A DNA stretch of 64,000 nucleotides from Azonexus sp. (GTDB taxonomy: Bacteria > Pseudomonadota > Gammaproteobacteria > Burkholderiales > Rhodocyclaceae), in the NCBI RefSeq assembly GCF_023150235.1, contig NZ_JAKLLH010000017.1:1-64000 (forward strand). Reading direction: 5' to 3'. The notes under the pieces were generated by a model. That model did not search any database, was not told the DNA's origin, and was given only the letters and a program-made list of their open reading frames with translations. Positions within the stretch are counted from its first letter, which is position 1, and the number at the start of each line of letters is the position of its first letter. The translations under genes were made by a program, and so were the position numbers. Shown here piece after piece: positions 23,646 through 29,185 of the stretch.

Positions 23646-23667
23646 GGCGCGGTCTCACAAAATGAAA

Positions 23668-23700
23668 GGGCTGCCGGGAGGGTTCCCGGCAGCCCCGATT
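23668..23700. terminator. Strong hairpin terminator after the repeat-protein gene
   Basis: A perfect 12-bp stem GGGCTGCCGGGA/TCCCGGCAGCCC with loop GGGT. On the minus strand it is followed by TTTCATTTT, and on the plus strand by CGATTTTT, so it can act both ways. It ends the 23742-29185 locus. Confidence 0.85.
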
Positions 23701-23741: not shown

Positions 23742-24056
23742 TTACTTGCCGCCAATCACGCCGGCTTCGTTGGCTGCGGTGTTGTTCTTGCCAACTGCAA
23801 CAGCCGTGGCGTTCTTCTGCGAAGCCTTGATGTTGGTATTGCCTTGGATCTGGGTACCGCCCTTGATTGCACCCGTGGTGTTCTTGGCCGTATTGCCTTC
23901 ACCAACGGCGACAGCGGTGACGTTCTTGTTTTCAGCCGCAATGTTGGTATTACCCTGGATCTGAACGCCTTGCGGGTTGGAGGAACGCTGAGCCTGCTGG
24001 GCAAAAACCGGGGAAGCAACAACGGCGGCGGCAATCATCATAGAAATCAGACGCAT
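23742..24056 (-). CDS. Secreted two-repeat protein, candidate fibre (amyloid-like) subunit
   Basis: 104 residues. Signal peptide MRLISMMIAAAVVASPVFA, then two 37-residue repeats: the first holds QIQGNTNIAAENKN-TAVAVGEGNTAKN, the second QIQGNTNIKASQKN-TAVAVGKNNTAAN. About two thirds of positions are the same, with evenly spaced Gly, Asn and Gln. This spacing resembles curlin repeats of CsgA/CsgB. It has its own strong promoter and terminator, as expected for a major subunit, and is the last gene of the CsgG-like locus. AGGAGA precedes the ATG. The fibre role is inferred; the repeats are seen. Confidence 0.75.
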   Translation of the reverse strand: MRLISMMIAAAVVASPVFAQQAQRSSNPQGVQIQGNTNIAAENKNVTAVAVGEGNTAKNTTGAIKGGTQIQGNTNIKASQKNATAVAVGKNNTAANEAGVIGGK

Positions 24057-24078
24057 GATATCAATCTCCTGTTACGGT

Positions 24079-24108
24079 TATATAGGTACTGCTGCTGAAA
24101 ATAGTCAA
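24079..24108 (-). promoter_or_regulatory. Sigma-70 promoter of the two-repeat protein gene
   Basis: Minus strand TTGACT, 18-bp spacer, TATATA, about 25 bases before the ATG at 24056. The best-looking promoter in the locus; it would give the last gene extra transcription. Confidence 0.7.
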
Positions 24109-24120
24109 GGGCTGCTTCAT

Positions 24121-24738
24121 TCAGCCGGTAACTACCTTGAAGACCACGCGACGGTTTCTGGGGTCGCGTGCATCGAGGTTTCTTAAGGTATCGCTCGAGC
24201 CCTTGCCGATCGGAACCAGGCGCCTGCGATCGATACCACTCCTGGAAGTAAGGAAATTGATCACCGACTCCGCTCGCTCACGAGAAAGCTGCAGGTTCCG
24301 GTCATAATTTCCCGAAGAATCGGTATGTCCCTCAACGATGATGCAACGCTCATTGAGCGAAAGAGATTTTGCGATCAGGTTGAGCGTACTTTCAGAGGCT
24401 GGCGAAATGGTTGCACTGCCAACATTGAACTGAATCGGGAAGTCGACCCCCGTCGAACGCACCTCCGGCGGCAACTGGAAGCAATCGCGGGCAACCGGCG
24501 GTGCGCTGGACGACGGCGCCGGAGCAGCCGACTCCATTCCAGCCGGCTGGCTGTCAAAAACAATCGCCCGTGTCCGCGCCTTCGGTTTGACGACACCCGC
24601 CTCCGACGGGGCATTCATTGCCCGTTCGAGCTCCTTGAGTTTTTCTTCTTCGGTCGATGCATTTGCCGAACCCAGAACGCCGCACAGCACGGCGGTAATG
24701 CAAGTTCTGGCTATCATCCCTTTTCTGGTGTTGAACAT
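24121..24738 (-). CDS. OmpA-family envelope protein, peptidoglycan anchor
   Basis: 205 residues from ATG MFNTRKGMIARTC. Signal peptide (cut near ANA-STEEE), a linker of about residues 30-95 rich in Ala/Pro/Ser, then an OmpA C-terminal domain: PIQFNVGSATISPASESTL, the peptidoglycan-binding EGHTDSSGNYDRNLQLSRER, and RRVVFKVVTG at the end. Probably ties the secretion locus to the cell wall. It begins five bases after the preceding gene. Confidence 0.85.
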   Translation of the reverse strand: MFNTRKGMIARTCITAVLCGVLGSANASTEEEKLKELERAMNAPSEAGVVKPKARTRAIVFDSQPAGMESAAPAPSSSAPPVARDCFQLPPEVRSTGVDFPIQFNVGSATISPASESTLNLIAKSLSLNERCIIVEGHTDSSGNYDRNLQLSRERAESVINFLTSRSGIDRRRLVPIGKGSSDTLRNLDARDPRNRRVVFKVVTG

Positions 24739-24743
24739 GTTTT

Positions 24744-25049
24744 TTACCTGCAAACGTTGATCACTTCTTTCGTCGTTACGACGATATCCTTGGGCTGACG
24801 CCCTCCCTGGCCGGCCTGTGCCGTACCGACATTGACACTGCAATCTCCGCCGCGCCGACTGCCGACATTGACTACGCGCTTCTCCTGCGTTGGGGTGTTC
24901 TGCCCCTTTTGCTGCTCGGACCAGCGCTTGGCCATTGCGTTGTTGACCTTGGTCTGTCCGGAAGCCCCCAGATTCTGCACAGCCTCCGCGCCGAAGGGCA
25001 AAATCGCCAAGGCGAAGACCAGCCCGAAAACATGCTTATTTGCATTCAT
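24744..25049 (-). CDS. Small secreted protein with C-terminal Cys motif
   Basis: 101 residues from MNANKHVFGLVFALAIL (signal peptide, cut near AEA-VQN). AGGAGG lies 11 bases before this ATG. The C-terminus has RVVNVGSRRGGDCSVNVGT and ends VINVCR. The NVG...C.VNVG and final C-[RK] pattern recurs in the proteins at 25036 and 26998. Two Cys probably form one disulfide. No known family recognised; likely minor fibre or chaperone component. Confidence 0.65.
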   Translation of the reverse strand: MNANKHVFGLVFALAILPFGAEAVQNLGASGQTKVNNAMAKRWSEQQKGQNTPTQEKRVVNVGSRRGGDCSVNVGTAQAGQGGRQPKDIVVTTKEVINVCR

Positions 25050-25338
25050 TGCTGACAATCCCTCCTATGTTGGTGCACGCCTTCTTGTTTCGACCGCCAA
25101 CGATCGTGGTGACATTCGTTGCCGATACGCTGATGCGGGTATTGTTCTTCACGTCGCCCTGAACAACACCGACGCGATTCTTGGCCACCGTATTCTCACC
25201 GGTGGCAATTGCAGTCATGTTATTGGTGGAAGCCGTAATCTCGGTATTTCCTTGCACCCTGGTCCGCTGGCTGGTCTGAGCCCACAGCGAAACGGTGGAA
25301 AGGCCAAGGACGATCATGACCAGTGTTTTCGCTTTCAT
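25036..25338 (-). CDS. Secreted repeat protein, candidate fibre subunit or nucleator
   Basis: 100 residues. Signal peptide (cut near LWA-QTS), then TRVQGNTEITASTNNMTAIA and, later, VKNNTRISVSATNVTTIVGG: the same NT-I-(S/A)-N-T-(A/T)I-G pattern as in the protein at 23742. The end KACTNIGGIVSNECK carries two Cys and the final C-[RK]. By analogy with CsgB it could be a minor subunit that nucleates the major one. Its ATG overlaps the stop of the metallopeptidase gene by four bases. Confidence 0.72.
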   Translation of the reverse strand: MKAKTLVMIVLGLSTVSLWAQTSQRTRVQGNTEITASTNNMTAIATGENTVAKNRVGVVQGDVKNNTRISVSATNVTTIVGGRNKKACTNIGGIVSNECK

Positions 25339-26243
25339 TGGATGTACCCCGAAAAAGTCAGCGGCAGACGTGTCGGCGGGCGGCCTTTCCTGAATGCTTC
25401 GCGCATTGCCTGCAACTCATCGTCACCCACGCCCAGTTTGCGGGCACTGAACGACTTGGGGTCTGGCGTGAACATCAGGTAAGCCTGCATCTCATTGATG
25501 ACCAACTCCTCGTTCTGCACTGCGTAATTGAAAGCTGCCAGGAAACGCTTGAAGTGCCCCCGTTGCTCCTCGCTCAGGGTTTCATACCAGAAACGCTGGC
25601 AGTATTTGGCATAATGGCCGTTGGAGTAGTACTCGCCATGCGACATTTCATGCAGCAGGATGGCAAGGCGGGCATCGCCGGAAACCATGGGTTCATTGCT
25701 TTTCCGGCCTTGCTCCTGCGGTACCGACAGGATGACCACATCCGGCCGCAGCCCCTGGTAGAAACCTCGCCACATCCGCATCATCCCGTGTTCGAGCAGA
25801 AAATTACGCACGAGCACCTCGTCGGAATTCAACTCGACCTTGTCGCGCAGGGCATAGTTGTAGAACTGCACCAGTTCCGAAACCAGAATATCGTGACCGA
25901 AGGCAAAATCCGCTTGCGTACGACGAGCAGCTTCAAAATAGCGGCTCAACTCGGCATCCGTCAGCACCTTGGGATAAGGCTCCATGAACTGCTGCTCGGT
26001 AAACTGGGTCACACGATTGAAACTACGCCCCTGGTGGCTCAAACCCGGGAAATCAAATACGTAAATATTCGGATTATCCGCATACTGCCAGACCGTCAGA
26101 CTATCGCTGCGCGACCGCAAGATCTGCTGGAAATCACCGGAGTAGAAATCCAGAGACCAAGCGAGATTCGACAACGCAAGCAGACACGCCAACAGCCAGC
26201 CATGCCGAAAAACCGAACCACTCCGCCGCACCCCCATGTTCAT
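25335..26243 (-). CDS. Secreted zinc metallopeptidase-like protein (HExxH)
   Basis: 302 residues with a signal peptide (LLACLLALSNLAWS). HEMSH at 198-202 gives two zinc ligands and the catalytic Glu; NEMQAY near residue 251 is a good third ligand, giving a gluzincin-type HExxH...E site. FYNYALRD, HGMMRMWRGFYQG and KYCQRFWYE look like conserved structural motifs. No named family recognised. Within the locus it could process or clear the secreted subunits; it is translationally coupled to the repeat protein at 25036. Confidence 0.7.
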   Translation of the reverse strand: MNMGVRRSGSVFRHGWLLACLLALSNLAWSLDFYSGDFQQILRSRSDSLTVWQYADNPNIYVFDFPGLSHQGRSFNRVTQFTEQQFMEPYPKVLTDAELSRYFEAARRTQADFAFGHDILVSELVQFYNYALRDKVELNSDEVLVRNFLLEHGMMRMWRGFYQGLRPDVVILSVPQEQGRKSNEPMVSGDARLAILLHEMSHGEYYSNGHYAKYCQRFWYETLSEEQRGHFKRFLAAFNYAVQNEELVINEMQAYLMFTPDPKSFSARKLGVGDDELQAMREAFRKGRPPTRLPLTFSGYIQ

Positions 26244-26257
26244 CTCCCGTCAATTGA

Positions 26258-26632
26258 CTAACGCTTGTAATAATCCAGGCGGTAAGCATGCGCCCGTGAC
26301 AGATTGGTCCTTACATCCTGCTGCCGCTGCGTACCCGGGGCCGCCAGCGGTCCGATCACGGGGGGATAAGCCAGCATCACCCCACTGCGCGGATCGCCCT
26401 GACGATTCAGGCGCCAGGCATGACTACGCTGAATCTGGTAGCCAGTGGGAGTCTGTGCATACCCAGGATAGACAACAATCCCCGGCATCCTGCCGGTTAC
26501 GACCCCCGCCGGCGGCGACACGGTCGAGTAATCAATCACGATCTCCCCGTGGGCAAGCCCACCCAGCAAACTCAGCAGCCAGCCGAGCAGCCAGTGAGCA
26601 TGACTGCAACTACTTTTCCTCGACTGCCACAT
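26258..26632 (-). CDS. Small exported protein of the secretion locus
   Basis: 124 residues from MWQSRKSSCSHAHW, with a hydrophobic signal (LLGWLLSLLGGLAHG) and a mature part EIVIDYSTVSPPAGVVTGRM...YKR rich in Gly, Pro and Tyr. GGAGG lies seven bases before the ATG. It overlaps the upstream gene by 23 bases. No family recognised. Confidence 0.6.
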   Translation of the reverse strand: MWQSRKSSCSHAHWLLGWLLSLLGGLAHGEIVIDYSTVSPPAGVVTGRMPGIVVYPGYAQTPTGYQIQRSHAWRLNRQGDPRSGVMLAYPPVIGPLAAPGTQRQQDVRTNLSRAHAYRLDYYKR

Positions 26633-26921
26633 TACCGTCCCTCCCCCACTGGATGCGATAGACCTTGCCCGTCTTTCCCGAGGTGTGCATGGTTTTACCG
26701 CGTGGAATCCTCTGACCGTCGATATAAACATTTCCATTGATCACGGCCACCCCCTCCATGTCGACCTCCTGCCCAAGGTCGCCGGCCACGTTGGAGGCAC
26801 TCGCACCCTTGCCAACCTGAACGCGAACACCCCCCGCCGTCACATCGACCGCCGCCTGAGCCTGTACGCCCGCAGACAGCAGGCTCGCCAGCAGAGCCAG
26901 CATGGAGTTACGTGTTTTCAT
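26610..26921 (-). CDS. Small secreted beta-rich protein of the secretion locus
   Basis: 103 residues with a signal peptide (LALLASLLSAGVQAQA). The mature part alternates short beta-type segments: VDVTAGGVRVQVGKG, GVAVINGNVYIDGQRIPRG, VYRIQWGRDGNVAVEEK. GCAGGAGT precedes the ATG. No Cys. Unknown family; it may be a periplasmic accessory (position comparable to CsgC/CsgE/CsgF in curli loci, which is only an analogy). Confidence 0.62.
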   Translation of the reverse strand: MKTRNSMLALLASLLSAGVQAQAAVDVTAGGVRVQVGKGASASNVAGDLGQEVDMEGVAVINGNVYIDGQRIPRGKTMHTSGKTGKVYRIQWGRDGNVAVEEK

Positions 26922-26942
26922 TGTCTCGGCCCACTCCTGCTA

Positions 26943-26954
26943 TCACTATAGTGA
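26943..26954. promoter_or_regulatory. 12-bp palindrome upstream of the second half of the locus
   Basis: TCACTATAGTGA, a perfect palindrome 22 bases before the start at 26921, in the only sizeable gap (76 bases) inside the operon. TATAGT could be a -10 hexamer for an internal promoter, with the palindrome as an operator. Confidence 0.35.
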
Positions 26955-26997
26955 GAGTAACGATCAGGGAAAACCCCAGGTTGACATCAATGAGTTT

Positions 26998-27582
26998 TTA
27001 TTTGCACCGAACCTTGATCTGTTTTCCTTGGCGTATGAGATGAACAATCGCCCCCGAGGTAGTGTCATCGCCGATCCTGCCCGAAACATTATCGACATCC
27101 AGGCAAGGGACGATGGGTATGCCGTCGCGACCGACATTGCTTAGATCGACGTCACGCAGGTTCCCCGTGCCGGAGTAGGCTTTGGCCCGCCCCCGCAAGT
27201 CCCCGGTGGGCGAGGCCGTATCGCCAGGAAGGATTGTCACCGCGCCCCCTGTAGCCCCGCTTCCATGCTGGTAGCTTCTTGCCTTGGCCCGTTCCTCGTA
27301 AGCTTTTTCCTCGGCTGGGGCGCCACCGCGTGGCGAGAGAAAACCGGACTCTTCGTCTTCGCCGACAACAACCGGCGGCACGACAACGTCGCGCGCATAA
27401 CTCCCGGCTTGCTCGCGTTGGGTACGAGCACCGGCAGGCCTGGCAGCCGCCGGCTTTTCCTGACCAATGACCAACTCAGCCAGAAGCTCCGCTCCCGGGG
27501 CCGACTCCACCGCACAGGCTGGAGCAGACTGAACTGCCAGCACGCAGGCGAACAGACCCGGCCAAACCGTTTTCTTCGACAT
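26998..27582 (-). CDS. Secreted protein with C-terminal Cys motif
   Basis: 194 residues from MSKKTVWPGLFACVLAVQSA (signal peptide, cut near ACA-VES), with GGGGGAGGGGG just before the ATG. The middle is Glu/Arg/Ala-rich and probably disordered (about residues 40-125). The C-terminus DLSNVGRDGIPIVPCLDVDN ... IKVRCK shares the NVG...C and final C-[RK] pattern with the proteins at 24744 and 25036. Unknown family. Second gene of the locus, 25 bases after the CsgG-like gene. Confidence 0.62.
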   Translation of the reverse strand: MSKKTVWPGLFACVLAVQSAPACAVESAPGAELLAELVIGQEKPAAARPAGARTQREQAGSYARDVVVPPVVVGEDEESGFLSPRGGAPAEEKAYEERAKARSYQHGSGATGGAVTILPGDTASPTGDLRGRAKAYSGTGNLRDVDLSNVGRDGIPIVPCLDVDNVSGRIGDDTTSGAIVHLIRQGKQIKVRCK

Positions 27583-27607
27583 GTCCCCCTCCCCCAAGGG
27601 TGATTTG

Positions 27608-29185
27608 TCAGCGACTTACCGTAATATCCAGATAACTCGCGACCAATGACGGATTGCTCTGTCGATAGGCGTTCACCACCTCATCCAGCGAACGCACGGG
27701 CAAAGGACTCAGATCCCGTGTTCCTTTGAACGTTTGTGGGACCACAACCTCGCGATCGGCTCCCAGGCAGGCTACTCGCTCGCGACCGGGTTGATCGAAG
27801 CGGATCTTGAATCCCCCCGAGGGCAGGCGAATCAGACTACCGGCCCGAAGTACCGGGTTACCGAAAAACTGGTTCGGGAAGATACGTGCCACCTGCCGGT
27901 TGATATCTTCGTAATAGCAGTACACAGCGCCATCGCCGTTCAGCGACAGAGACATGCTCAGGAATTCGCCTGGCTTGTAAGTAGGGCGATTTCCCCGGTC
28001 ACTGTCCAGATTGATCCGGAACGCGGCAGTGCCGGAAACTCCTGCCGGTGGCGCTGTAGCCGGTGCCGGTGGTGGAGGAGCGGCGGGCATGCTCGCGGGA
28101 GGATTGACTTGGCGGGCCGGCGGCGTGGTCGGTGCGGCTGCCAAGGAATTCTGCACGTCGTCAAGCAGGCTGGCGTACAACTCGAAATTGACGCGACCAT
28201 CCGCCGTCAGGCCGGTCTGCGCCTGATATTCGAGAATGGACTCCTTCAGGGGTTCGTTCATTTTGCCGTCAATCGGCCCCCTGTAACGGTTCATGCTCCC
28301 GCCCAGCTTGCGCTGAACGAACATGATGCGCTCGCTTTCCTTCATGGTTTCGTAGGTTTCGAGCGCCTGTTCCCGGATGACCGGGTTCGTAACATCCGCA
28401 TCAAGGCAGCGCCAATAGGGTACCTGGGTAAATTTTCCCAGAGTTTCGATCAGGCCCAGTTCAAGCAAGGCTCGCGTCGTTGCACCCAATCCTTCGGAAC
28501 GGCTGAAATCGAGATTGAAGGAAAAACCGATTTTGCCCAGCTTGCCACCAGCTTCCGCCGATTTGCCGCTCTTGATGATCACCATCGTGTTGGCAGTACT
28601 GGTCTGTGCCAGTATCTTGCGCGATGCGGCATCGCCGATACTCATATCCATCGAAATCACATCGTAGGAAACGTCCTTTGATACACCGAAATCGAAGAAT
28701 GCCGCAGCCAGCCCAAAGCCCTGATTTTTGCGTACCGTATTGTCATCCATCTGGGTGATTGAACCGCGGATGTAATAGTCCGGCACCTTCATGGCTGCAT
28801 CGCCCTTGCGCGCAAACAACTGCCCAAGATCGTCGCCAACGCTATGAAAATCGATGAACTCGAAGGCATTGCTCTTCACCGTCATCTTGGCCAGCGCGGT
28901 AATCAGCATTTCCTTGGTTCCCGTCCTCACCTTGCCGGTTTCGTCGGGAATACCGGTGGAAGTCACCACGATCCCATTCTTGCCGTAGGCAAGGAAGAGC
29001 TCGTCCATGCAGCGCAGGGCCTGCGAGAAATTGGTGACGGTTTTGATGGCCGGCGTTTTCGGCCCGGCTTCGGTCTGCACCTTGGCAGCCGGATCGCTCC
29101 AGGTGGAGAAATCCCCCTGCGCTCCGGCATGGCCAGCGCACAGCAAAACGGACACGGTCGCCACGCCGCGGATCAATCTAGACAT
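27608..29185 (-). CDS. CsgG/HfaB-like secretion protein with peptidoglycan-binding and DUF4384 domains
   Basis: 525 residues. Signal peptide (cut near GHAGA-QG); no canonical lipobox (VLLC), unlike CsgG. Residues about 35-275 look like a CsgG-type domain: DYYIRGSITQMDDNT, YDVISMDMSIGDAASRKIL, and ARALLELGL-type helix after a Phe-rich segment. Residues about 288-345 match a peptidoglycan_binding_1 fold (RYRGPIDGKMNEPLKESILE). A Pro/Ala linker leads to a C-terminal DUF4384 domain (FRINLDSDRGNRPTYKPGEF). CsgG forms the outer-membrane pore for curli subunits. First gene of the nine-gene run; GAGGGGGCG precedes the ATG. Confidence 0.75.
   Translation of the reverse strand: MSRLIRGVATVSVLLCAGHAGAQGDFSTWSDPAAKVQTEAGPKTPAIKTVTNFSQALRCMDELFLAYGKNGIVVTSTGIPDETGKVRTGTKEMLITALAKMTVKSNAFEFIDFHSVGDDLGQLFARKGDAAMKVPDYYIRGSITQMDDNTVRKNQGFGLAAAFFDFGVSKDVSYDVISMDMSIGDAASRKILAQTSTANTMVIIKSGKSAEAGGKLGKIGFSFNLDFSRSEGLGATTRALLELGLIETLGKFTQVPYWRCLDADVTNPVIREQALETYETMKESERIMFVQRKLGGSMNRYRGPIDGKMNEPLKESILEYQAQTGLTADGRVNFELYASLLDDVQNSLAAAPTTPPARQVNPPASMPAAPPPPAPATAPPAGVSGTAAFRINLDSDRGNRPTYKPGEFLSMSLSLNGDGAVYCYYEDINRQVARIFPNQFFGNPVLRAGSLIRLPSGGFKIRFDQPGRERVACLGADREVVVPQTFKGTRDLSPLPVRSLDEVVNAYRQSNPSLVASYLDITVSR

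Follow-up and report, generated by a model that had tools for sequence, protein, structure and literature searches.

What is made by nine consecutive genes for exported proteins, only two of which match a Pfam family above its cut-off? The question was raised by a locus at positions 29185-23742 of a 64,000-nucleotide stretch of Azonexus sp. DNA (assembly GCF_023150235.1, contig NZ_JAKLLH010000017.1, positions 1 to 64,000), which we call the window. A preliminary description of the window had proposed a curli-like system matching no described one. Our analysis suggests that the locus probably encodes a secretion system of the CsgG family, distinct from both curli and the holdfast anchor. Its cargo would be a separate family of Gly/Asn/Ala-rich repeat proteins, assembled into a wall-bound fibre or mesh. 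The interpretation in the preliminary description is partly supported by the results below; export of the repeat proteins and their assembly into a fibre are inferred. The genes, numbered g1 to g9 in the order of transcription, are nine consecutive open reading frames (ORFs) on the minus strand:

27608..29185, minus strand: g1, exported protein of 525 amino acids (aa) with a CsgG-like domain, PG_binding_1 and DUF4384; candidate outer-membrane export channel
26998..27582, minus strand: g2, exported protein of no family
26610..26921, minus strand: g3, exported protein related to g9 in its N-terminal part; candidate nucleator or minor subunit
26258..26632, minus strand: g4, exported protein of no family, present in 16/29 loci
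25335..26243, minus strand: g5, exported HExxHxE metallopeptidase-like protein of 302 aa, no family
25036..25338, minus strand: g6, exported repeat protein of period 35; candidate fibre subunit
24744..25049, minus strand: g7, exported protein with KEVINVCK conserved at the C terminus; candidate channel partner
24121..24738, minus strand: g8, OmpA-type peptidoglycan anchor (PF00691, E 1.3e-18)
23742..24056, minus strand: g9, exported protein with two 37-residue repeats; candidate main fibre subunit

This layout is the one given in the preliminary description. All nine proteins begin with a signal-peptide-like stretch (judged by eye), and overlaps are found at g3/g4 (23 bases), g5/g6 (ATGA) and g6/g7 (14 bases). 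The peptidoglycan-binding and DUF4384 domains assigned to g1 (E 5.6e-5 and 2.2e-11) and the OmpA-type anchor were all recovered over the Pfam cut-offs; in the remaining seven proteins no family exceeded its cut-off. The small ORFs are very likely genes, because the proportion of nonsynonymous differences (pN) was lower than that of synonymous ones (pS) for every gene in a codon comparison with three relatives (27/27 comparisons). Against genome G064, for example, pN and pS were 0.06 and 0.72 for g1, and 0.03 and 0.50 for g9. The nonsynonymous distance (dN) of g9 was the lowest among the nine genes in all three relatives; the ratios of dN to the synonymous distance (dS) are rough, because dS was saturated in many comparisons, and g6 of one locus (L014) is frame-broken.

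A contig scan yielded 35 g1 loci; in three of them (L024, L035 and L042) the contig stops shortly after g1. The order g1 then g5, g6, g7, g8 was kept in 29 of the 32 uncut loci; an automated tally restricted to loci with >5.5 kb behind g1 gave 26/29. The exceptions are L030 and L036, where g1 stands alone, and L046, a divergent alphaproteobacterial version in which g7 and, further upstream, a g6-like gene precede g1. The lone g1 of L036 lies ~23 kb from a complete set (L043) on contig JAUSCI010000019.1, that of L030 on JAPLQZ010000217.1, and neither has an adjoining repeat gene. Among the 29 tallied loci g2 was found in 23, g3 in 25 and g4 in 16; g9 was present in 0 to 4 copies in the 26 ordered loci (two copies in 18 loci, a single copy in 5 and no copy in 1), with up to four copies in tandem. 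Giesbergeria anulus ATCC 35958 (L017) has all genes of the set except g4. The flanks mostly differ: of the genes that border the set in the window, named by eye, thiC occurs in 3/35 loci, ~10 kb from g1, and the ATPase gene that follows g9 occurs in 3/35; some loci have little flank.

In a survey of 149 relatives g1 matched 10 genomes, seven of them at full length; the matches in G082, G105 and G126 were distant or partial, and these three genomes gave no match to g5, g6 or g9. Full-length g1, g5, g6 and g9 were found in the same seven genomes; the searches for g5, g6 and g9 drew a blank in the other 142. The seven carriers belong to three genera of one family and some also supply counted loci, so that locus and genome counts are not independent. 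Judged by order and co-occurrence, the nine-gene set is a conserved unit: the genes do occur together in relatives and partly beyond, an outcome whose absence would have spoken against the preliminary description. The full set was also seen in bins labelled Desulfobulbaceae (L037) and Deltaproteobacteria (L039), with g1 57-60% identical to that of the window, which may reflect transfer across phyla or misbinning.

The channel candidate, g1, has three recognizable parts:

28394..29041, minus strand: CsgG-like domain of g1, residues 49-264
28166..28315, minus strand: peptidoglycan-binding domain of g1 (PF01471), residues 291-340, in 35/35 members of alignment A1
27761..27982, minus strand: DUF4384 of g1, residues 402-475, with an Ig/FnIII-like model end

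Alignment A1 comprised the window and 34/35 g1 loci (L024, cut by a contig end, was left out). Fold comparison assigned the predicted g1 model to the CsgG fold, the property on which the preliminary description had staked its reading, and the predicted strands are long at the positions of the CsgG membrane hairpins. Among the families for which profile searches were proposed earlier, DUF4384 was matched over its cut-off. The Pfam CsgG model matched g1 with E 0.093 (12.5 bits, under its 20.8-bit cut-off), the HfaB model NF037935 gave 17.1 of the required 300 bits, and the curlin family PF07012 was not matched; none of the three models had a match in the own genome at E 0.001. A search of the PDB with the single g1 sequence found nothing relevant, and the g1 profile reached CsgG chains only at E ~1.2. 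In profile comparison g1 was related to HfaB (96.8%).

The repeats expected to be curlin-like are real, but they are not those of curlins and resemble them only loosely. In g9 they extend to the last residue:

23856..23966, minus strand: repeat 1 of g9, residues 31-67
23745..23855, minus strand: repeat 2 of g9, residues 68-104, ending GVIGGK

The period of 37 in g9 was equalled in 0/300 shuffles and the period of 35 in g6 in 5/300, whereas g3 and g7 showed no periodicity. Sequences were collected in alignments A2 (window + 38/53 g9-like ORFs), A4 (window + 29/31 g6 pieces, the two pieces of the frame-broken g6 of L014 being omitted) and A6 (window + 27/30 g3). The strict motif QxGxxN was absent (0/39 g9 and 0/30 g6 sequences), whereas AxGxxN occurred in 38/39 and 22/30, respectively, and PF07012 was not among the matches of A2 or A4. 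Curlin ancestry of g6 and g9 was not supported by these results. By unit length (35-37 versus about 22 residues) and motif, the repeat proteins are a family of their own. A6 aligned with A2 in hhalign with 93.1% over 65 columns, signal peptide included. A C-terminal cysteine pair is present in nearly all g6 relatives. Two irregular loci, L016:15156-16533, where g9 copies overrun their usual end, and L014:13881-14186, with the broken g6 frame, may represent decay or errors in metagenome-bin assembly.

Members of the family are also encoded away from the locus. Contig C11 of the own genome (L076:2960-4345, minus strand) encodes an exported 461-residue protein with 11 repeats of period 36 (0/300 shuffles), two of them with inserts; no other gene of the locus was seen within the 8 kb read around it. 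Related proteins carry 2, 3 or 11 units of similar length. Further g9-related genes off the locus were found by g9 search in G078 and G083, and all off-locus relatives are in locus-bearing genomes. The C-terminal IGGx is shared by 47/53 g9-like ORFs and by the 11-repeat protein (AVIGGN); of the six ORFs lacking it, two are run-on frames, one meets a contig end and three are variants. A single channel may serve several subunits, whether encoded at the locus or away from it.

How does the locus relate to described systems? Like curli, it combines a secretion protein of (predicted) CsgG fold with small exported G/N-rich repeat proteins, which have xxGxxN about once per unit. Unlike curli, its units are longer and have neither QxGxxN nor PF07012, its g1 carries a peptidoglycan-binding domain and DUF4384, an OmpA anchor and a peptidase are added, and the window's g1 has no lipobox pattern, whereas CsgG is an outer-membrane lipoprotein. 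CsgE, CsgF and curlin had no Pfam match in the nine proteins, and CsgE and CsgF were not searched for elsewhere in the genome; the excerpt of PMC3521004 reports that, among alphaproteobacterial genera that have curli, about half lack the two as well. The claim that the locus fits no described system held as far as tested, with no relative of curlin, CsgE, CsgF, HfaA or HfaD among the nine; curli, Hfa and Fap each have, by sequence comparison, at least one defining feature that is not found here.

The Hfa system resembles the locus in the kinship of g1 with HfaB and in the small exported proteins encoded next to the channel gene, and in L046 and L079 the gene order comes close to small repeat protein, CsgG-like protein, long repeat protein, with intervening genes; it differs in that g1 scores far under the HfaB cut-off. 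Besides the full locus, genome G078 carries a second arrangement that resembles Hfa, at L079:3012-8054 (contig C16). It encodes a small repeat protein, a CsgG-like protein (424 aa) that matches g1 but not as far as the DUF4384 region, and a repeat protein of 1010 residues. An unlikely alternative, worth weighing here, is that the locus makes an HfaABD-like anchor and not a fibre, the g1 channel bringing to the surface short repeat proteins which hold a polysaccharide or another matrix polymer. The HfaB kinship of g1, the shortness of the two-repeat subunits and the presence of two peptidoglycan-binding proteins are in its favour, as is the role of the Hfa proteins, which hold the holdfast polysaccharide according to the excerpt of PMC6707917. 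Neither HfaA nor HfaD had a library match, however, and in hhalign the HfaA match of g6 and g9 was confined to the signal peptide (~25 columns) while HfaD gave a probability of 0.2-0.3%, both with shallow alignments (3 and 4 distinct sequences). HfaA or HfaD ancestry of g6 and g9 was not supported by these results, and the 11-repeat relative and the tandem g9 copies would suit a polymer better than an anchor.

Comparison with Fap gave another mixture. FapC has three 37-residue repeats, and its secretion needs the catalytic cysteine of the peptidase FapD (PMC6173800, excerpt); the locus shares the 37-residue repeat (g9) and the presence of a peptidase. In the Foldseek list of g9, FapC took the top row without significance (E 1.0); the g9 profile found no FapC chain in the PDB up to E 10. 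Unlike the locus with its CsgG-type channel candidate, Fap exports through FapF, and FapD is a C39-family peptidase whereas g5 carries HExxHxE and had no C39 match in the family library scans. These scans detected no Fap family in the nine proteins, the presence of a FapF model in the libraries being unconfirmed. In the open-licence part of PubMed Central no paper paired CsgG with DUF4384 or linked Accumulibacter with CsgG, which is weak evidence of absence; among the papers listed, none described this gene set in its title or abstract start, and by the same parts the five papers found on DUF4384 concerned other subjects.

The wider distribution points to a smaller common core. The g1 profile matched 59 of 398 genomes of the phylum, many of them in the peptidoglycan-binding part only, and 14 places, chosen among the better matches and not at random, were opened. 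In five (L125, L127, L128, L136 and L137) profiles detected a repeat protein, g7, g1 and OmpA; in L126 they detected repeats, g1 and OmpA, and a g7-like gene was recognized by eye. In L129-L132 g1 is present, g7 was found by profile in L130 and L131 and by eye in L129, and repeat proteins were seen by eye in L129 and L131, L130 and L132 being scanned by profile only. L135 combines g1 with a repeat gene and with OmpA genes, of which the nearest is on the opposite strand. In L124 the set is split into two divergent halves; this was the one place of the 14 in which the peptidase was found. Among 72,556 plasmid records g1 occurred in two, both from Azospirillum. On plasmid AZO_p4 of A. lipoferum 4B (L139; genes AZOLI_RS26745 to AZOLI_RS30575) profiles detected an exported two-repeat protein, g1 and OmpA, and a g7-like gene was seen by eye; behind these genes lie FHA, PP2C phosphatase and trypsin-like genes. 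Of the gene set proposed earlier, g5, g2, g3 and g4 were seldom found beyond the betaproteobacterial form; what is shared there is the repeat protein, g7, g1 and OmpA. These four therefore form the core, and the peptidase, g2, g3 and g4 look as if they had been added in the betaproteobacterial form and its near relatives.

On the fibre interpretation, the nine proteins would cross the inner membrane by Sec, as their signal-like N-termini suggest. The product of g1 would form a CsgG-like ring with long hairpins spanning the outer membrane, fixed to the wall by its own peptidoglycan-binding domain and by g8. The g9 and g6 proteins and repeat proteins encoded elsewhere would traverse the channel in unfolded form and fold afterwards, stacking their 35-37-residue units end to end; g3, with part of one repeat, could start or cap the stack. 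The g7 protein, whose gene neighbours g1 in most forms of the system, may dock on the channel, and the g5 peptidase may trim a component or clear failed subunits.

Several observations weigh against this interpretation. The predicted g1 model is only middling, and the beta-moment of the four candidate membrane strands is unclear (99th percentile for 213-227; 81st, 88th and 30th for the others). A lipobox was found in 5/35 members of A1, that of the window not among them. Some g1 genes have no neighbouring repeat gene: none was seen in L133, L134 or the plasmid of A. ramasamyi, which has g1 and OmpA. The g9 model had no significant fold match.

Some of these points would suit a g1 that has the CsgG-like fold in its wider sense but forms a periplasmic ring or tether and not a channel, with the repeat proteins reaching the surface otherwise or staying in the periplasm. 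The fold lists of g1 give PelC, FlgT, LptE and HpaA after CsgG, three of the four strands are not clearly amphipathic and the window's g1 lacks the lipobox; we nevertheless regard this as quite improbable. Still less credible is a secreted, non-polymerising beta-solenoid-like adhesin or surface coat. The AF2 model of g9 is a confident, beta-rich monomer, and ice-binding and adhesin proteins appear in its fold list, low and non-significant; against a soluble protein, the g9 repeat reaches the last residue, which would leave an open end as in stacking proteins, and related proteins vary from 2 to 3 or 11 similar units. That nine unrelated exported proteins are neighbours by chance, as named families in g1 and g8 only might suggest, is refuted by the order kept in 29/32 loci with mostly different flanks and by the co-occurrence in the same 7/149 relatives, and can practically be dismissed.

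Returning to the CsgG-family fibre system, we propose more tentatively that it may represent an additional class of functional-amyloid systems dependent on CsgG, alongside curli and Hfa, reaching from Rhodocyclaceae and Accumulibacter to Azospirillum. Such a class would have a channel fused to wall-binding domains, g7 with its C-terminal ...INVC tail as partner, and subunits of a new family built from 35-37-residue repeats, including genome-scattered ones of up to 11 repeats, with one channel for all. If this is true, a system with its own subunit family and with a channel bearing its own wall anchors is added, and both the choice of non-curlin substrates by a CsgG-type channel and the question of which protein gives granules their fibre become testable. 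Gene removals are conceivable in the cultivated A. lipoferum 4B, which has part of the set, and in G. anulus ATCC 35958.

The HExxH motif predicted earlier for the peptidase is located in g5 as follows:

25638..25652, minus strand: HExxH motif of g5

Residues H198, E199, H202, E204, N250 and E251 were invariant in 30 sequences (alignment A3, window + 29/30 g5; L035, cut by a contig end, was left out). The g7 gene belongs to the part of the set that is shared outside the betaproteobacterial form, and no CsgE or CsgF Pfam match was obtained in 22 g7 sequences (A5, window + 21/29 g7). A defence-system reading was rejected, PADLOC giving no match for g1, g2 or g5.

A possible promoter before g9 (TTGACT-18-TATATA) was discarded, a pair at least as good occurring in 14/100 shuffles; upstream of 53 g9-like ORFs there was no promoter excess, nor was there any in a consensus scan (2 sites versus 2.1 expected). 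One further element follows g9:

23667..23696, minus strand: terminator-like hairpin of 13 pairs, after g9

Hairpin sites of terminator type at the g9 end were barely over chance (9 found versus 6.5 expected). In four Accumulibacter loci (L028, L031, L033 and L038) a second OmpA-type gene lies nearby, ~0.7-0.8 kb past the end of the set.

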